A DNA stretch of 45,777 bases from a virus, in IMG/VR virus record IMGVR_UViG_3300020183_000138, positions 1 through 45,777 of that record. One strand, given 5' to 3'. The notes below the pieces were generated by a model. That model did no database searches and had not been told where the DNA came from. It saw only the letters and a list, made by a program, of their open reading frames with translations. A program made the translations under genes and the position numbers. Of the stretch, positions 7,353 through 44,098 are shown one piece after another. Positions within the stretch are counted from its first letter, which is position 1. Each line of letters begins with the position of its first letter.

Positions 7353-10300
7353 TTACTTACCAAGAATCTTTACCGTATCAGTAGGGCTGAGTTCGCCGCG
7401 GTTGAACGCCTTAATGACATCGTCTTTAGTTTGGAATACCTTAACGTTGCTCTTATCTGGTGGGCGCTTGCTAGCTAAATAAAGGCCGTATAAAAACTCG
7501 TTCTTAATAAATGGCTGAGCCTGGAATGTTGCAGCAGACATGAGATTACGACTAGGCAACATGCGTTCGTAGGCTTCAGCTACAGCCTTCTGGGAGGAGG
7601 GAACGTGCAGACGCATCTGATCGCCGTCAAAGTCTGCATTAAATCCAACAACGACAGATGGCGACAATCTAAGGGTGCTACCTGTGGTCAGTCTTGGCTT
7701 GGCTGCCATGAAGTTGTACTTGTGCAGTACGGGCGCTCGGGTAATCATAACCGGACGCTTGTCCATTTCAGCGAGTAGGGCTCGCTTGGCAGTTGTTGTT
7801 CTATTTTCAACCTGCTTCATCGCCTCCAGAGGATTTGCCCCAGAAGCAACGAGAGATCGAACTACGTATGGGCGGAATACAGAGAATGCCATGTCCTCGG
7901 GTACCCCAACATGGTCCATGTCTAGTGAAGGATCTGGGGTAATAACGGCATTACCTACGCCTTCTACGGTAGAAGACAGCACCTTGCGCTGGAACATAGA
8001 GAACTTGGGATTGCTGCCAAGAATGTGTCTAATCAGGCCGTTTACATTCTTCTGCTTGAGCTTTGCACTAGCCGGGTCGGCAAGACCGACCGTAGCCTTG
8101 ATCATCTTATAAAGCGCAAGCTTTTCTTTGCCTGTGGCTTCATTGCCCAGCTCGCCTTGCAGTTCCTTCAAGTTACCGTTCATGCTGAACAGTTCTTTGT
8201 ACAGATAGTTCATGTCTGAGACCATCTGCATATTGCCGGTATCGGTAATGGGTCTGAAGCGAGGGGGCAGTACTGGCATGTCCTCCCAGAGGAAATCGCC
8301 AGGCTTGATCTTGCGCTTCTCCATGCCCTCTAAATACGAAAGTTTGGAAATAGCGTTGCTGCGCTTCTGCCCCTTGGATGCCGTGATTTCTCTACGGGTG
8401 GCCTCAATCTCTGCTGGGATATTCATGCCAACAAGTTTCTGCTCCAATCCTTCCATACCGCGAATGCCTTTGACTGTATCACCAGACACTACGGATTCAA
8501 AGTCTTTCTTGGTGAGTCCGGTAAGGGAGCGCACCACGTCCTCCATGACAGGATTGACCATCTTGGCGGCAAGAGGGAAATGGCCGAAAGATGATTGATT
8601 GACGCCAAAGATCTTCTCGTCAAAGAAACCGCCGTCATAGGCTTTGCCTGTCTTGAAGTCGATGTCTCGGAAGTCCTTGACCTCACCACCAGACAAACTC
8701 TTAACATCTTTGCCGGTCATGCCGTAAATGTTTACGGCGCCGCCTTGACGTTCTACGTTGACCCCAGCACCCTTGAGCTGAGCTACGAACTTATCCCATA
8801 CGAATGGAACATTGACGGAAGGCACTGGAGTACCCATCTTGATCGCACGCCAGTATTCGTCGTTCTTCTGGCCACGGACAAGTCGGGCATCTTTGAGTAC
8901 TTCGATAGCGCCGTGGGCAAGAATAGCATTCATATCAGAGATGGAGATACGCTTAGCGCCTTCATCTCCACCCTTGACTGGAGCTTCTTCAGTGCTGTAA
9001 CCACCGGTATCACGGGCGCTCAGCTTCTTCTCGGCCTGGTGGTGCAGGTTCATGAAGTAGCGATTGCCGGTAAATACATTATCTACGTTGCGATTAAGTC
9101 TTGGGTCGTAGATAGTCTCTGTATCTGTAAGGCCGTTTTTCTTTAGCTCTCGTTGAGCAAAGTCTATGAAGCTTTCGTCCAGGAACGCCGGAAGCTTGAC
9201 TGGCTGCCCAGTCTTAGTGGCAATTTTGCCCATTGCGGCCTCCACGGCCTGAACAGGATTAACACGAGTGACAAGAGCCAGGGGGTTGTAAATGACTTCA
9301 TATGAATTGCCGTCCTTATCCTTGGGCATATCTTCATCTGGAATGATGGTGGAGATGACACCTTTGTCGCCGTAACGACCGACCAGCTTATCGCCTACAG
9401 ACATTGGCTTGTAGGACTTGATCGCCACCTGGTATCCGCTGCGGGTCTTGGTGACGTTGGTGACAATGCCAGGCTGGCTGTGATCCCAGGTTTGGGCTCT
9501 GTTCGTATAGCTCGGTCTCGCCTTCTTCATCAGACCAAAAGTGTCGGACTTTCTTTCGCCTACACCAAGGATAATTGGATCACCTGGATTTAAAGTAGTG
9601 CCGGGTTTCACGACGCCTGTAGCAGAATTCAGATTAACCAACTGCTCTTTGTTGTACTGCCCTGGGAATAAAGATACAAACTTACTGAAGTTGGCCTCGT
9701 AGTCGTCCTTGCCGTCATAGCCAACGGTGTACATGTGCTCAGACGACATCTTCTTGGCAGCTGTCTCAGACATGACTACGCCGTCTTCGAAGTTAGACCC
9801 ACCCAGTTCAGGATCGCCCCAGACGGTATACGCCACCTTTAGATTACGACCCATGGCAAGTCTGCCCTGGTCATCAGAATAGTTAGACTTAGCCAATAGC
9901 TGACCAGGCTTGATCTGATCCCCCAGCTTAACCATTGGCGTATTATGAATATAAGTCTTGCGGTTAAACGGGAAGTTGTTGTACAGCTCGTAACGGCGCT
10001 TTTCCTTGCCGTGCTTTACCTCTACGTATTCTGGCGTAACCGCAGTGACGAGACCATTGCCAAGGTCAGCTTCGGCAGCTACTGCACCAAGGTGCGGTAC
10101 AAGCTGCTCTTCAAACGATCTACCCTCTGCGTCATTAGGATCTAATCCCTGTACCAGGGGCGCTTCGGCACCCTGGACAGGTAGCGCCTGAGTGAAGTAC
10201 TTGGAACCCATGAGCAGGCGTCCACCCTTGATGCCGGAAATGCCAGGCACAAGGTTGGAGTTGATGTTAAACATGTTGCTGTGGGCAGGCACTTCGTACT

Positions 10301-12272
10301 CGACCTCTGCAGGATCGACATAGGAGATGCGGCCACGCACCATCGCCCTGATTGGATCTCCAGTCTTCGCCGAGCGTGCAAGTTCCCCAGGGAACGCAAC
10401 AATCGAATCGGTCAGCGTACGAGCCGCCACAGGCTCCAGCTTGCCGGTCTTGATGCTACGCATCCTGGAGTATATCTGGCCATCTGAGCCCTTGTAGGAG
10501 CCTACGGTGAGTCGTAGGTCGATACCTACCTTGTCGGACTCAGGAGTACGAACTGGGTCTAGGAACCCAAGGTGAGATGGCTGGACTGAACGGCTGTCAA
10601 CAGGAATGCCGTGAGCGGCTGAACCAATACCGCCCTCACCAGTGCGGATTACACGCATATTCTGATCCAGGATCTCCATCGGATTTACTTCTTCGATGGG
10701 AGCGCCGAGACCAGAACCGATGAGTACACCATTGAGCACCGGTGTAAATACACCGTTGCGGAATGCATTTAAGTTGCCTTTATTGGTAGCCTTGAATAGA
10801 GCTGTTCTGACAGCTGCGCCGGCGTCCTTTTGAATTCTTTCGGAGAAGAAGTCCTCTGGGCCTAGGAACTTCTGATAGGCCAAGGAGTCACGATCATCCT
10901 GATCTTCAAGACCGCGTTGAGCATTAAGAATCTTTTGAGAGGCGCGCAGTAAAGTGCTGCCAGTTATTCTGCTTAAGTCTTCGTCGTTGAGCTGCATTTG
11001 CTCATACTCGAAGTCCTGCATGGTGGGCAAAGGGGCAGCTTCCTTCTCAGTCAGTAATTCATTTAAATTAGCAGCAACCTTTGTACCTACAGCTAGTCTA
11101 AAGCCACCACGAGGCTTGGCATCGAGTAGCAGGCTTCTACGAAGTTGCTCCAGCTCCGGGCACTCAATATCAATGCAGTATTCCCCGCCGTTGGGTGGCA
11201 GTACGCTGCGAATATTGTAGGTAAATCTACGGCCAGAACCGCAGGTGGTCTCAAAGTTCTTACGGAAGACTTTCTTTAGCTGCTTAAGCTCTTCTGCCGT
11301 AATAACGACAAGCTTGCCCTTGTCGGCAACGGGAGAGATAGCAGGAGCTTTGTCAGAATCCCTTAGCGCATAGAAAACGCTATCTACGAATCCTGCAGGT
11401 ACGGTAATGTAGCCTTCGCCTTCGATCTTTAGTGTACCCCGCAGCGGTACATCTGCTTGCTTCTTGATGACTCCGGCATAACTCAAAGTACGACGGGTAA
11501 CCTCTGGGTCTAGCTCAGTCTTATAAAGAGCATCTTTGATGCCTTGATAAATCGTGGCATCGTCTAGACCCTTGGAAGGATTATTGGTTAGTCGTTCATA
11601 GATACGAGCTGCGTCGTAAGCTGAACCAATCTTATTGGACCCCAGAAGCTCCTTGCCCCAGGTGCGCTCAAGAATAGAGTCGTCAATACCCATGGCCTTG
11701 AACATCGGATATGCAGGAGCAACGGACTGCCCAATCTCGGCAACAAACTTTCCAGTATCTGGCATAAAGGCCATGCGGAAACCACGACCCTTGCCCGGCA
11801 TGGTGTTGAAGTGCGCCTCAAACTCGCCAGACTTACGCTTACGAACGTATGGCCCTGCAAGCAGACGAGACTGATTGGCTACGGTGTATTCGCTGCCTGC
11901 GTTAATAAACGTGCCACGATCCGTAAGATATGGCACTCTGGCAAGAGTGACAGATCTATCGGTCTGATCCATGATCTCGCCGGTAGCGTTATCCTTCATT
12001 ACCAGGCGGCCACGCAAGGGAACATAAAGACTCTGATTCTGCATCAGAGCCTCTTGCTGTTCCTTCAGGCTGTAGGGTTCAGAGCGACCGTAATCTAAGT
12101 CCGAAAGCTCGACAGTGTATCGAGTGTTCTGCAGGGGAAACTTTGACAATACCGCATTCTTTACCCCGTCAAAGATATTCTTACGGGTGACACGGTAATC
12201 GTTAAAGCCCCTCAGCACCGGGGCAGGAGGGGCTACGAGTTGGTTTAAGTCGTCTGCACCGGGCGTAGGCAT
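7353..12272 (-). CDS. RNA polymerase beta fused to N-terminal half of beta'
   Basis: 1639 aa, DNA-directed RNA polymerase of the multisubunit type. Residues 1 to about 1185 are beta-like: GTFINAGSEYTVANQSRLLA (120-139), HLGFLDPVRTPESDKVG (about 563-580, like the HYGRxCPxETPEGxNIG region), VAYTVWGDPELGGSNFEDG, and GDKLVGRYGDKGVIS (about 960-974). Beta'-like sequence begins at about 1190 with FRDIDFKTGKAYDGGFFDEKIFG, then PVLPPRFRPI (about 1333), RAPVLHKYNFMA and the Mg-binding NADFDGD (1545-1551). The zinc-ribbon cysteines normally following the first beta' motif are absent. The protein ends 88 residues after NADFDGD, before the regions holding the bridge helix and trigger loop. Host enzymes have these as separate proteins, and phiKZ-type phages split them into four or more. 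The gene sits among putative virion genes, which suggests a packaged polymerase (inference). Confidence 0.93.
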   Translation of the reverse strand: MPTPGADDLNQLVAPPAPVLRGFNDYRVTRKNIFDGVKNAVLSKFPLQNTRYTVELSDLDYGRSEPYSLKEQQEALMQNQSLYVPLRGRLVMKDNATGEIMDQTDRSVTLARVPYLTDRGTFINAGSEYTVANQSRLLAGPYVRKRKSGEFEAHFNTMPGKGRGFRMAFMPDTGKFVAEIGQSVAPAYPMFKAMGIDDSILERTWGKELLGSNKIGSAYDAARIYERLTNNPSKGLDDATIYQGIKDALYKTELDPEVTRRTLSYAGVIKKQADVPLRGTLKIEGEGYITVPAGFVDSVFYALRDSDKAPAISPVADKGKLVVITAEELKQLKKVFRKNFETTCGSGRRFTYNIRSVLPPNGGEYCIDIECPELEQLRRSLLLDAKPRGGFRLAVGTKVAANLNELLTEKEAAPLPTMQDFEYEQMQLNDEDLSRITGSTLLRASQKILNAQRGLEDQDDRDSLAYQKFLGPEDFFSERIQKDAGAAVRTALFKATNKGNLNAFRNGVFTPVLNGVLIGSGLGAPIEEVNPMEILDQNMRVIRTGEGGIGSAAHGIPVDSRSVQPSHLGFLDPVRTPESDKVGIDLRLTVGSYKGSDGQIYSRMRSIKTGKLEPVAARTLTDSIVAFPGELARSAKTGDPIRAMVRGRISYVDPAEVEYEVPAHSNMFNINSNLVPGISGIKGGRLLMGSKYFTQALPVQGAEAPLVQGLDPNDAEGRSFEEQLVPHLGAVAAEADLGNGLVTAVTPEYVEVKHGKEKRRYELYNNFPFNRKTYIHNTPMVKLGDQIKPGQLLAKSNYSDDQGRLAMGRNLKVAYTVWGDPELGGSNFEDGVVMSETAAKKMSSEHMYTVGYDGKDDYEANFSKFVSLFPGQYNKEQLVNLNSATGVVKPGTTLNPGDPIILGVGERKSDTFGLMKKARPSYTNRAQTWDHSQPGIVTNVTKTRSGYQVAIKSYKPMSVGDKLVGRYGDKGVISTIIPDEDMPKDKDGNSYEVIYNPLALVTRVNPVQAVEAAMGKIATKTGQPVKLPAFLDESFIDFAQRELKKNGLTDTETIYDPRLNRNVDNVFTGNRYFMNLHHQAEKKLSARDTGGYSTEEAPVKGGDEGAKRISISDMNAILAHGAIEVLKDARLVRGQKNDEYWRAIKMGTPVPSVNVPFVWDKFVAQLKGAGVNVERQGGAVNIYGMTGKDVKSLSGGEVKDFRDIDFKTGKAYDGGFFDEKIFGVNQSSFGHFPLAAKMVNPVMEDVVRSLTGLTKKDFESVVSGDTVKGIRGMEGLEQKLVGMNIPAEIEATRREITASKGQKRSNAISKLSYLEGMEKRKIKPGDFLWEDMPVLPPRFRPITDTGNMQMVSDMNYLYKELFSMNGNLKELQGELGNEATGKEKLALYKMIKATVGLADPASAKLKQKNVNGLIRHILGSNPKFSMFQRKVLSSTVEGVGNAVITPDPSLDMDHVGVPEDMAFSVFRPYVVRSLVASGANPLEAMKQVENRTTTAKRALLAEMDKRPVMITRAPVLHKYNFMAAKPRLTTGSTLRLSPSVVVGFNADFDGDQMRLHVPSSQKAVAEAYERMLPSRNLMSAATFQAQPFIKNEFLYGLYLASKRPPDKSNVKVFQTKDDVIKAFNRGELSPTDTVKILGK

Positions 12273-25065: not shown

Positions 25066-25094
25066 TGTTTCCTTTTCTTAAGTGTCAAACGGGA

Positions 25095-25168
25095 TGGGCC
25101 GGGTGGGATTCGAACCCACGTCGGATCGATTATGAGTCGATGGCTCTAGGCCGCTGAGCTACCAGCCC
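25095..25168 (-). tRNA. tRNA with CAU anticodon (Met or Ile2)
   Basis: Cloverleaf with acceptor GGGCTGG/CCGGCCC, anticodon loop ACTCATAAT (CAT), T-arm GGTTCGAATCC and discriminator A. CCA is not encoded. CAU may be elongator Met or, after lysidine modification, Ile(AUA); the sequence alone does not decide. No initiator-type features are evident. Confidence 0.92.
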
Positions 25169-25174
25169 AAATGA

Positions 25175-28598: not shown

Positions 28599-28630
28599 AA
28601 AAAGAAAATCCCCCCCTTGATGGGGGGATT
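28599..28630 (-). terminator. Intrinsic terminator
   Basis: Minus-strand AATCCCCCC/GGGGGGATT followed by TTCTTTTTAGG. Ends the 74-codon gene. Confidence 0.8.
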
Positions 28631-28646
28631 AGATGCCTTTAGCGGG

Positions 28647-28868
28647 TCACTTCGCACACGCCCTCAGGGCGTTGAAGACTGTCAAAACATCCCCGGGTAA
28701 CAGCTCCAGGTTTTCCTCCTCCGCCCTATAAGCCCCTTCAAGGAGCTCACTCAGCCAAGGTTGGAACCCTGCCGCTGCCACTGGTCCGGAGACCCGACGG
28801 ATCTCCAACACCTCCACTAACGTGCGCTCGTACTCCGCCATCAACATCTTAGCAATTGGGTTATTCAT
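28647..28868 (-). CDS. Small cassette protein, 73 aa
   Basis: Starts at ATG 28866-28868 with AAAGGGG about 7 nt upstream. The sequence (MNNPIAKMLMAEYERTLVEV ... ENLELLPGDVLTVFNALRA) is a helical soluble protein of no recognised family. It is preceded by a 340-nt structured spacer and followed by a terminator. A longer upstream frame exists but overlaps the structured spacer and lacks a ribosome-binding site. Confidence 0.62.
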   Translation of the reverse strand: MNNPIAKMLMAEYERTLVEVLEIRRVSGPVAAAGFQPWLSELLEGAYRAEEENLELLPGDVLTVFNALRACAK

Positions 28869-29207
28869 GCCCAACCCCTTTCTGCCCCTGTGGGGCAAAG
28901 CCAGCCAGGGTGCAATTAAGCACTCAAGGCGGCGAGCCCGAAGGCTCAAAAGGACAAACTTTAAGCAGTTTAAGGACCTGCTTAGGTCCGGTGGGGACGG
29001 AGGGCTACTGCCACTCCACCTGTGCAACGGTTGCTTAGCACTAAACCCGAAGCTTTGTCGGGAAGGCTGTCCCAGCACCACCAAATGTTTAAGCAGTTTT
29101 TTACTGACATGCTTAGGTCAGCGGATCGTAGGCCGTAGCCCGGAACTGATCCAAGTAATGGGGAGTCGGAGTTTTCACTCCGATCCCCCGGGGGAGGAGG
29201 CCGGGAA
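28869..29207 (-). ncRNA. Structured RNA region with two pseudoknot motifs
   Basis: No gene is credible here. On the minus strand two copies of a motif occur: GGACC-TAAGCA-GGTCC then TTAAAC-TGCTTAA (28961-28989) and TGACC-TAAGCAT-GTCA then ...ACTGCTTAAAC (29089-29120). In each, the hairpin loop TAAGCA is complementary to the TGCTTA that follows, an H-type pseudoknot. The stems differ by compensating changes (GGAC/GTCC against TGAC/GTCA). Other hairpins: CGGAG/CTCCG, CCCGA/TCGGG. It could be a long 5' UTR or a separate RNA. Confidence 0.55.
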
Positions 29208-29444
29208 TCAGGCGGGGGTGTAACCCCTCGCCCAGGATCCCACCGACACCCTCCAACGCGGCTGTCGAATGACAGCCACCCCGTGGGTGTCTTCTACCAG
29301 GGCCTCGAAGTTATCGAGGTCCTCAGCGGTGCGGATCTGGCGAACCAGATCCACAACGCTCTCGGCGACATCAGCCGAGAGGTTAGAGGCGAGAGATACC
29401 ATGGCCCCGTTCACCGTGGCCATACGATAGGTATTTAGTCCCAT
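29208..29444 (-). CDS. Small cassette protein, probably leaderless, 78 aa
   Basis: MGLNTYRMATVNGAMVSLAS ... VIRQPRWRVSVGSWARGYTPA. No family is recognised; helical, soluble. The ATG (29442-29444) is embedded in the promoter's TATACATATATATGGG, at the place where transcripts of the sibling promoters should start, and no ribosome-binding site precedes it or the next ATG. Hence a leaderless mRNA is proposed. Confidence 0.6.
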   Translation of the reverse strand: MGLNTYRMATVNGAMVSLASNLSADVAESVVDLVRQIRTAEDLDNFEALVEDTHGVAVIRQPRWRVSVGSWARGYTPA

Positions 29445-29481
29445 ATATATGTATAGCACGAATAGGCCCTATTTTTAGCCC
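29440..29481 (-). promoter_or_regulatory. Phage-type promoter, copy 7 (leaderless variant)
   Basis: TAAAAATA, 14 nt, TATACATATATATGGG. The final ATG is the start codon of the gene at 29208. Confidence 0.75.
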
Positions 29482-32690: not shown

Positions 32691-32714
32691 CCTTTTAGGG
32701 GGTCTTTATTAGCT

Positions 32715-32750
32715 AAAAAAAGAAGATTGGTTGTGTACACCCAACCTTCT
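32715..32750 (-). terminator. Intrinsic terminator of RNA cassette
   Basis: Minus-strand AGAAGGTTGGGTGT / ACACAACCAATCTTCT (minor bulges) then TTTTTAGC. Marks the 3' end of the cassette that lacks a gene. Confidence 0.8.
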
Positions 32751-32948
32751 TTTGGACATTTGCGGGAGTCCACCCTTACCCATTTCGGGATGCCTGCCTC
32801 GGGGCCGTTCCCGTACCGGTGGTATTCCGGCATTCCTCAACAATAAGTGTCCGCTACCCATAGGCAGATACGGGTAGTAGGAAAGGGCCCAATGCATCAA
32901 GAGGATGCATTTACCTTTCTGGGCTTGTTCAAGACCTACAAGGCCTCT
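32715..32948 (-). ncRNA. Candidate non-coding RNA, about 234 nt
   Basis: Bounded by promoter copy 6 and a terminator. Predicted hairpins in order: GGC-TTGT/ACAA-GCC at the 5' end, AATGCAT/ATGCATT, CTACCC/GGGTAG, a GGACA/TGTCC closing stem enclosing ATGCC/GGCAT and CCC/GGG. The only frame of size (63 codons, ATG 32895-32897) lacks a ribosome-binding site and runs into the terminator's T-tract; an 18-codon frame (MHPLDALGPF...) follows AAAGG. A regulatory or structural RNA is more likely than a protein. Confidence 0.55.
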
Positions 32949-32985
32949 ATGTATATATATCTCAAATAGGGCCTATTTTTAGCCC
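32943..32985 (-). promoter_or_regulatory. Phage-type promoter, copy 6
   Basis: CTAAAAATAGG, TATATATACATAGAGG with 14-nt spacing; closest to the consensus. Drives the candidate RNA. Confidence 0.78.
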
Positions 32986-33420: not shown

Positions 33421-35280
33421 TTACTGCGGAGGAGGCATCGGCTGGCGTAGTTGCTCTTTGCCTTGATTAGCTGCCTGCTGGGTAATACCGTCCAGCATGC
33501 TCTTGACCACGGCATGTAGGTTTGGATCCTGGCCCTTGATCTGATCCAGGATCTGTCTACGCTGCGGAGAGCCAAGCGGGGCTGTAGCCATGATCTCGTT
33601 GACTCGAGCCTGGGCATCCGCAAAGAAGCTGTCCAGATCCTTGCTTGGGCCTGCTGCCATTGGCCCTGCAACGCCGTTGACGGGCATAGGAGGGGCCATT
33701 GGCGGACCGCCAAGGTTGGGCCCACCTGGCATGCCACCGGCTCCCATTGGAGCCCCTGGGCCTGCGATCATTGCGCCAGGAGGGGCAGCCATGATCTGCT
33801 CGTTCTCTTCCGCCTTGCGCATCTTGTCCATGTACTCCTTCTCGGCCCGCATCTTGAACTCCTGCTCTGCCTGGCGCTTCTTGAAGGTATCCTTCCAGTC
33901 GAGGCCAAAGAGAGTGAGTACATCCTGCTCTGCAGCAACGCCTTGCATCATCATCTGCAGCATGAGCATGCGGCGTTCGATGTCGTCGGCATGGGTAGGC
34001 TTCGTGAGGTTGACTTCACAAGGCGCCCAGTTAAGAATTGCGCTGACTCTGTCCACAATCCAAGTAAGAGTTGTCTGCAAGCCGTGCAGGAAGTGCGTCT
34101 CACCAGCCTCAAAGAGTCGAGCTGCAAAGGGAGCAGTCTGGGCACTTAGAGTCTTTCGATACAGCTCTACCGGAACACCCATGCCGTTGAGGAAGTCTGC
34201 TTGAGCTTGCTCTAGGAGTTCAGGTACGACAAAAGCCTTACCCTCGCCGCCAAGCAACTGATAGTTAACCGGGATAGGCATCCACTGCCAGCCTGTAGGG
34301 TCTCTACGAGCTCGCTCCACTGACCTCAACACGGACTGTCCAAAGCTGCCAATATTGACTGACTTCATAAAGTCACCGCCTGCTCCGACAGAGGCGGGGG
34401 TTACGAAGCGAATTGGCAACATATGGTCTAAAGCAATGCTTTCGTTATTGCGCTTGAGGATCTGGGCAAGATAGGCATCTCGGAAACCGGCAATAACCGG
34501 AGGCAGACCCCATACGCCCATCTTAATATCGCTTAGATTGCCTAAAGAGAAGTGGTGCACCATGTTGTCGCTGAACTGAAACAGGGTTCCAGATCGGACA
34601 GACTGCACCAGGGCCCAAGGCACACTCTCCAGGTACTTCTTATTGCCGCTCTGGATCTGCTGTATGTCCTGCGGAGGCACTTCATAGAAGTAGTCAGGCT
34701 TTCCACCATATTGGTGAGCTACAATGCGCATTTGCTTGATGGGCCAGCGCTTGATGTAGATTTCGTTTTCCTGCAAAGTAGGACGATCGTCTGGATTCAA
34801 GCAAGTAGCGTGCTTATTGCAGCTGCTGCAGGTAAAACTGAACCCGTGATTCAGCGTAAACTTGTAATCAACGCTTTGAATTGGTCTGCTGGCTCCGCAT
34901 TTATCACAAGTCAGAAAGCGCTTGAATGGGGCCAGTACGGAAATGCAGCTATTGCCGTATACCTTTACATCCCGGCCAATCATGAACAGCAAAGACTTAA
35001 GATCCAGCTTTTCAATCAGAAACTTCTTGTACTGATTAGCCTTTTCCTCGTCGTCAGCCAATAGATTGATGTCCGTGCCGGTGAAGTACGAAACCACGTA
35101 CTCAGTAGCTTGGGCAAACGTTCTATTGCTGTAGTACATCGTCTCCGCAATTTCAAACGCTTCGTTGAGATTGGTAGGAAGGTGCAGCGAAGCGTAGTCC
35201 AGGAACGGACTTGGGACGTGCTCTGCGTGCGACAGAGACCGTCGAGCTGGCATCTGCGGATTGGACGAAAAGTCAGGCAT
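33421..35280 (-). CDS. Portal protein with zinc-ribbon-like insert
   Basis: 619 aa. Helical N-terminus (EAFEIAETMYYSNRTFAQAT), then a core with IYIKRWPIKQMRIV, MVHHFSLGNLSDI, GLPPVIAGFRDAYLAQIL and a long C-terminal helical part: the order and length typical of portal proteins of large phages. A CxxC pair (C125, C128) and a second CxxC (C151, C154) plus C160 form a likely zinc site, unusual for a portal. Residues about 500-560 are a Gly/Pro/Met-rich linker. AGAGGAA before the ATG. The portal forms the dodecameric DNA gate of the capsid. Confidence 0.75.
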   Translation of the reverse strand: MPDFSSNPQMPARRSLSHAEHVPSPFLDYASLHLPTNLNEAFEIAETMYYSNRTFAQATEYVVSYFTGTDINLLADDEEKANQYKKFLIEKLDLKSLLFMIGRDVKVYGNSCISVLAPFKRFLTCDKCGASRPIQSVDYKFTLNHGFSFTCSSCNKHATCLNPDDRPTLQENEIYIKRWPIKQMRIVAHQYGGKPDYFYEVPPQDIQQIQSGNKKYLESVPWALVQSVRSGTLFQFSDNMVHHFSLGNLSDIKMGVWGLPPVIAGFRDAYLAQILKRNNESIALDHMLPIRFVTPASVGAGGDFMKSVNIGSFGQSVLRSVERARRDPTGWQWMPIPVNYQLLGGEGKAFVVPELLEQAQADFLNGMGVPVELYRKTLSAQTAPFAARLFEAGETHFLHGLQTTLTWIVDRVSAILNWAPCEVNLTKPTHADDIERRMLMLQMMMQGVAAEQDVLTLFGLDWKDTFKKRQAEQEFKMRAEKEYMDKMRKAEENEQIMAAPPGAMIAGPGAPMGAGGMPGGPNLGGPPMAPPMPVNGVAGPMAAGPSKDLDSFFADAQARVNEIMATAPLGSPQRRQILDQIKGQDPNLHAVVKSMLDGITQQAANQGKEQLRQPMPPPQ

Positions 35281-43527: not shown

Positions 43528-44098
43528 TCTTCAGTTCCTTGTAAGCATTGGTTGTTCTAGCTGCCATATACACTGACAGCGCATCGTACACGTGCTCGTT
43601 CTTTCCTTCCAGTACTTGTCCTCGTTTTCCCTTTACCCATCCGTTAAAGTTTGGAAATAATGTCTTTACGGAAGTCTTGACGTCTCCTTTGGAAGCCGAC
43701 GTGCTGCCGGTAGCTGCACGCTTGGCCTCAAATGGAGTCACCAGGGTAACAGGAATCTTAAAGCCGTCCACAACAGCGCAAGCCGCGCCTCTGGCAATAG
43801 CCATGCTTTTGGCTGCCTGAGCGCTCTTTGATCCGCCTGTTGGGCACTCTATGAATATATGACACGGTAGATGCTCCATGAGAACCTTCTCTAGGGATCG
43901 CACCAATTCCGTGGTTCTGCGCCACTCATCATCTGACACTCGCATCTTGGCTCTTTTTAGTTCTGCCTTATCCGTCTTTTCCGTGTGGATGGTGTCCACA
44001 TGGAGCAGCTCGTCCTTGGCAGGACTAATAGAAAGAACCGCTACGCCAGTATTGGCGAGGGCTAGATCGAGGCAGACGATGAGAGGTGAGTTATTCAT
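43508..44098 (-). CDS. RuvC-like Holliday-junction resolvase
   Basis: 196 aa, RNase H fold. The acidic motifs are in order: VCLDLALANTGVAVL (Asp 11), IFIECPTGGSKS (Glu 84) and NEHVYDALSVYMA (His 169, Asp 172). This is the phage/poxvirus RuvC layout. The enzyme would resolve branched DNA before or during packaging. It sits in a set of co-translated genes. ATG overlaps the next gene's stop. Confidence 0.82.
   Translation of the reverse strand: MNNSPLIVCLDLALANTGVAVLSISPAKDELLHVDTIHTEKTDKAELKRAKMRVSDDEWRRTTELVRSLEKVLMEHLPCHIFIECPTGGSKSAQAAKSMAIARGAACAVVDGFKIPVTLVTPFEAKRAATGSTSASKGDVKTSVKTLFPNFNGWVKGKRGQVLEGKNEHVYDALSVYMAARTTNAYKELKNGRNCE

Follow-up and report, generated by a model that had tools for sequence, protein, structure and literature searches.

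On the minus strand of the window, by which we mean the whole 45.8-kb IMG/VR phage record analysed here, lies a cassette that appears to encode a structured non-coding RNA (ncRNA) of ~235 nt. As judged from aligned relatives, the putative RNA has a covarying secondary structure including at least one supported pseudoknot. The original prediction of a new ncRNA at this site is supported by the lack of a conserved reading frame, by the covariation, by the recovery of relatives on which our covariance model had not been trained, and by the lack of an Rfam match. On balance, we favour the reading that this is a stand-alone ncRNA cassette of a large phage with its own multisubunit-type RNA polymerase, and that its product would be a stable, trans-acting structural RNA of ~235 nt, most likely a scaffold or decoy.

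Cassette anatomy and coding potential

The window is a fragment of a large, lake-type phage, the portal protein of which is ~24-26% identical to those of 181-188-kb Salmonella and Vibrio phages. The portal gene is followed downstream by a run of short cassettes, several of which have their own promoters. The features relevant to the ncRNA are listed below.

33421-35280, minus strand: portal gene
32983-32946, minus strand: promoter of the ncRNA cassette, CTAAAAATA-N-TTTGA-GATATATATACATAGAGG, comprising the upstream CTAAAAATA element and a GATATATATACATAGA box
32713-32950, minus strand: structured ncRNA of ~235 nt (5' end approximate), with promoter and terminator and with homologues at the same place
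32750-32713, minus strand: intrinsic terminator, AGAAGGTTGG..CCAATCTTCT followed by TTTTTTT
30126-29500, minus strand: coding cassette with a promoter of the same class, specifying a 138-aa protein and an extremely structured RNA (z -15.0)
25092-25169: the nearest tRNA, a single tRNA-Met
7353-12272, minus strand: RNA polymerase gene, one 1639-aa protein with beta and beta' domains (a beta/beta'-like fusion)

The promoter and terminator that had been claimed to bound ~234 nt were both found, with ~235 nt between them. The window contains eight copies of the promoter, which lie between 27.6 and 33.0 kb, without exception on the minus strand, and share the layout CTAAAAATA - ~12 nt - GGTATATATACATAGAGG. 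The copy of the ncRNA cassette scored highest among the eight; its 23-mer had three matches, as opposed to none in 100 shuffles, and a simple sigma-70 promoter scan did not recognise it. We infer that the eight promoters are used by the phage polymerase, which shares 30% identity with a protein of Salmonella phage Arash. A search for a T7-type RNA polymerase in a 174-kb contig of a relative gave no match, as did the same search in the control genomes. The mRNA leaders at 32602-32521, 31898-31817 and 28540-28460 (minus strand) have in common a 5' closing helix and a hairpin, CCAGCAACUCUGCUGG, preceding the ribosome-binding site, which suggests a 5' leader structure common to them.

As first described, the cassette has the format of nearby protein genes, and the adjacent cassettes do make proteins with ribosome-binding sites. 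The frame enclosed here (63 aa, TTG start, 32900-32709) has no such site and stops in the terminator tail, again as described. A short protein gene, in which this frame or one with an upstream start is translated, is hardly credible and has been largely refuted: one frame does stay open over the entire transcript in the window, but 1- and 2-nt indels and stops disrupt the frames between the window and the homologous loci L003, L022 and L024 (as well as in L025), and the substitutions preserve helices, not codons. No conserved reading frame was found across the window, L003, L022 and L024 alleles, every frame being broken by indels, and the homologues thus hold no conserved protein of the kind that the original prediction had named as its refutation. 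We also consider it very improbable that the RNA acts in cis on the next gene, as a leader or attenuator. The next cassette does lie directly downstream, but its protein gene has its own pair of promoters past the terminator (32666 and 32606), and both are retained in phages without the RNA.

The coding cassette at 30126-29500 apparently specifies a leaderless protein. Its homologue in L024 (11456-12060) encodes a 70% identical protein and is equally structured (z -15.5), and the fold is kept there with 24 double compensatory pairs versus 4-8 in slid controls; this cassette is apparently dual, being both coding and a putative structural RNA. Elsewhere in the window, strong RNA structure is predicted at 43858-44097 (minus strand, z -9.3), within a RuvC-like coding sequence.

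Secondary structure and covariation

The folding energy of the transcript (MFE -81.7 versus -69.8 +/- 4.6 in shuffles, z -2.6) is unremarkable alone, because 240-nt windows of the minus strand average z -1.5 (s.d. 2.0). RNAs of the relatives gave z values from -2.8 to -5.8. As the MFE is only mildly low against the strand background, the case for structure rests on comparison. In a plain MAFFT alignment of four alleles (window, L003, L022 and L024), 91% of the cells in the proposed helices are paired, versus 34-45% in slid controls. Six pairs changed on both sides, versus 2.8 +/- 1.2 in shuffles, of which 4 out of 500 reached six; the covariance check in relatives was thus passed, and these compensatory changes argue that selection acts on the structure of the ncRNA. 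At least five nested hairpins had been predicted. The hairpins are present, albeit mostly side by side, with pseudoknots, so that the nesting did not hold. The elements of the proposed fold are as follows.

32922-32944, minus strand: 5'-terminal hairpin GGCCUUGU/ACAAGCC, recognised from sequence
32881-32919, minus strand: helix H1, GAAAGG/CCUUUC with inner AUGCAUC/GAUGCAU, compensatory changes in L022
32854-32877, minus strand: helix H2, CUACCC/GGGUAG, compensatory changes in L022 and L024
32862-32867, minus strand: H2 loop CUGCCU, 5' strand of a pseudoknot with AGGCAG at 32799-32794
32815-32831, minus strand: core hairpin GCCGG-AAUACCA-CCGGU, pairs covarying over ten sequences
32800-32813, minus strand: hairpin H5, CGGG-AACGGC-CCCG, GC-flipped in L025 (GGGG/CCCC) and absent in L066
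32776-32786, minus strand: conserved strand GAAAUGGGUAA, the UGG of which pairs with CCA of the core hairpin loop

The 5'-terminal hairpin is present again in L025 and L066 with different sequence, and neighbouring mRNAs use another form of it as their 5' end. At one position of the core hairpin, the ten sequences compared have CG, UA or GC pairs, and the adjacent position has GU, AU, CG or GC; the only mismatch is in L087/L089, at the outer of these two covarying positions. Downstream, AAAUGGGU is the pairing partner of the core loop, AAUNCCA. In L022 both sides of this pseudoknot are altered (CCUA with UAGG), and we favour it over a local CCC/GGG hairpin because the L022 change breaks a CCC/GGG pair. 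The second pseudoknot, CUGCCU/AGGCAG, pairs fully in the window, L022 and L024, which do not differ there, and lacks one pair in L003; covariation therefore speaks neither for nor against it.

Alleles in close relatives and a core in unrelated phages

Homologous loci were obtained via the portal protein, and the collection includes only six close allele types, the window's and five further ones. In all five, a homologous RNA of ~180-460 nt occupies the corresponding position on the downstream side of the portal gene. The ncRNA aligns with those of L003-L006 (83%, one haplotype), L022 (78%) and L024, while the L026 and L027 alleles are identical. A covariance model (R1) built from four alleles of the window's group only, with L025 and L066 left out of the training, recovered both the L025 (E 9e-8) and the L066 allele (E 7e-4), the latter a reduced form of ~190 nt without H5. 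The portal of L025 is ~98% identical to that of the window over the segment compared, yet the RNA there is ~460 nt long, and its overlap with the window allele is confined to the core, the final ~45 nt and the terminator. The terminator is near-identical in L022 and L025, and L024 has a different one.

At the corresponding site in L007 and L010, the portals of which are 90-92% identical, we found only promoters and protein genes, and R1 had no match in these contigs; L007-L011 are fragments, so that a copy of the RNA elsewhere in those genomes is possible. The ncRNA thus seems to behave like an exchangeable accessory cassette, an "RNA moron", because such portal relatives have no RNA at the site and a ~98% relative has a radically different allele. 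The same distribution bears on a packaging or portal-associated function like that of phi29 pRNA. In the window's phage group the RNA is always just downstream of the portal gene, but it does not accompany every closely related portal (being missing at the site beside the 90-92% identical ones, on fragmentary contigs), its size ranges widely from ~180 to 460 nt, and it is present elsewhere in unrelated phages. We regard a packaging role as improbable.

Searches of annotated phages, plasmids and GTDB genomes gave no meaningful match. Rfam, at gathering and permissive thresholds (E up to 10), returned no family for the window, L024 or L025 RNAs; the ncRNA is absent from Rfam release 15, and automated annotation would therefore miss it. 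Two pattern matches, in L083 and L084, are portal coding sequence and were dismissed as chance. Another contig, L064, has an ORF-less, strongly structured cassette of 495 nt (9511-10005, plus strand, z -7.7) without an Rfam match (E up to 5); it was rejected as a relative, since the model finds no homology.

Searching for the core pattern yielded further contigs of 34-69 kb (L085, L086, L087 and L088/L089), and the proteins tested from them matched no Pfam or PHROG family. In four unrelated contigs the core reads CGGAAUNCCACCG...AAAUGGGURAGCC and is part of RNA regions of ~0.8 kb, a Pistol ribozyme following shortly downstream; Rfam places Pistol ~60 nt or less downstream of the core in L085, L086, L087 and L089 (four of four, 48-65 bits against a threshold of 34.5). 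R1 matches L085 (E 7e-5) and L086 (E 2e-4) weakly and does not match L087 or L088, the link of which therefore rests on the core pattern. The core-bearing region of L086 has z -7.4.

The Pistol-bearing regions (6080-8080 in L086, and those in L085, L087 and L089) are long, structured and noncoding, and the one in L086 has two T-arm-like GGGGUUCGAAUCCCC hairpins. The L085-L089 regions also have a small H-type pseudoknot, N3-4-C-URAGCA-N-N3-4'-...-AAAC-UGCUYA, of which the window has two copies (29090-29116 and 28962-28985). Both fall in a predicted transcript of ~840 nt (28600-29445, minus strand, z -9.6), the 5' end of which carries an 83-aa frame. In L003 (12148-12175 and 12617-12645) and L025 (3850-3880 and 4317-4345) the module is intergenic, just before ribosome-binding sites, and one copy is followed by a run of U; there it is possibly an mRNA processing or stability element.

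We tentatively suggest, with somewhat less than even confidence, that the core (hairpin CGG-AAUNCCA-CCG, its loop pairing with AAAUGGGURAG) may be a portable RNA domain of unrelated phages, which receives its 3' end from an intrinsic terminator in the small cassettes of one group, and in another group sits in ornate ~0.8-kb RNAs trimmed by Pistol. If this is the case, it would give initial access to a class of modular phage RNAs that has not been described before. Modular exchange, the swapping of alleles and the Pistol neighbour in distant phages would also fit a remnant or mobile RNA element that is passed among phages in parts (core, ribozyme, pseudoknots) and does not benefit them. We consider this unlikely to a high degree, as the compensatory changes show selection on structure and the promoter and terminator are kept.

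Putative function and comparison with known systems

In the reading that we favour, the phage polymerase would transcribe the cassette during infection into a stable RNA of ~235 nt, which would have a structural role in trans, most likely by binding a protein or ribonucleoprotein as a scaffold or decoy; the 3' core may be the common functional domain, and the 5' domain, swapped between near-identical phages, may set specificity. An antisense or Hfq-type small RNA, regulating phage or host mRNAs via base pairing, would fit in size and in having its own promoter and terminator. Antisense targets were sought within the window, and the longest complementary stretch there, of 17 nt, is only repeated promoter/leader sequence; in addition, helices or pseudoknots hold most of the conserved bases. 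We thus view antisense regulation as possible but rather unlikely. We prefer a trans-acting scaffold or decoy to a packaging RNA or antisense regulator because of the compact pseudoknotted fold, the lack of an antisense target in the window and the modular exchange, which resembles that of host- or defence-facing genes.

GOLLD and ROOL are structured phage RNAs with pseudoknots and of unknown function, and in GOLLD the 3' part is conserved and the 5' part variable (PMC12286853). The window ncRNA is likewise an ornate phage RNA with pseudoknots, a variable 5' part and a function still unknown. However, it is ~235 nt long (~180-460 nt in relatives), in contrast to about 600-800+ nt, and the nearest tRNA is 7.5 kb away, whereas GOLLD and ROOL occur near tRNA islands. 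A homo-oligomeric RNA particle is a further hallmark of GOLLD and ROOL. The GOLLD and ROOL models of Rfam matched neither the window, L024 and L025 RNAs (E up to 10) nor L064 (E up to 5) nor L085-L089 (E up to 1). As the tests of sequence, size and tRNA neighbourhood failed, we do not file the ncRNA under GOLLD/ROOL.

Pistol (RF02679) adjoins the same core, downstream, in L085, L086, L087 and L089; in contrast, the Rfam search found no Pistol consensus in the window RNA, in which the place after the core is taken by an intrinsic terminator. The phi29 pRNA is a small phage packaging RNA. The ncRNA is also small and encoded beside the portal gene, but its sporadic occurrence and widely varying size argue against packaging. 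Phage morons are accessory cassettes with their own promoter and terminator. The ncRNA cassette resembles them in having both, in sitting between conserved genes and in being sporadic in close relatives (L007 and L010 have none at the site, and L025 has a replacement); it differs in putatively encoding a structured RNA, whereas morons usually encode proteins. Although GOLLD, ROOL and other large phage RNAs are common, no function is known for them. An RNA of similar kind that is small and modular, with its 5' domain exchangeable, its core common and one natural form flanked by a ribozyme, offers a workable way into the questions of which partners such RNAs bind and for what reason phages keep exchanging them.
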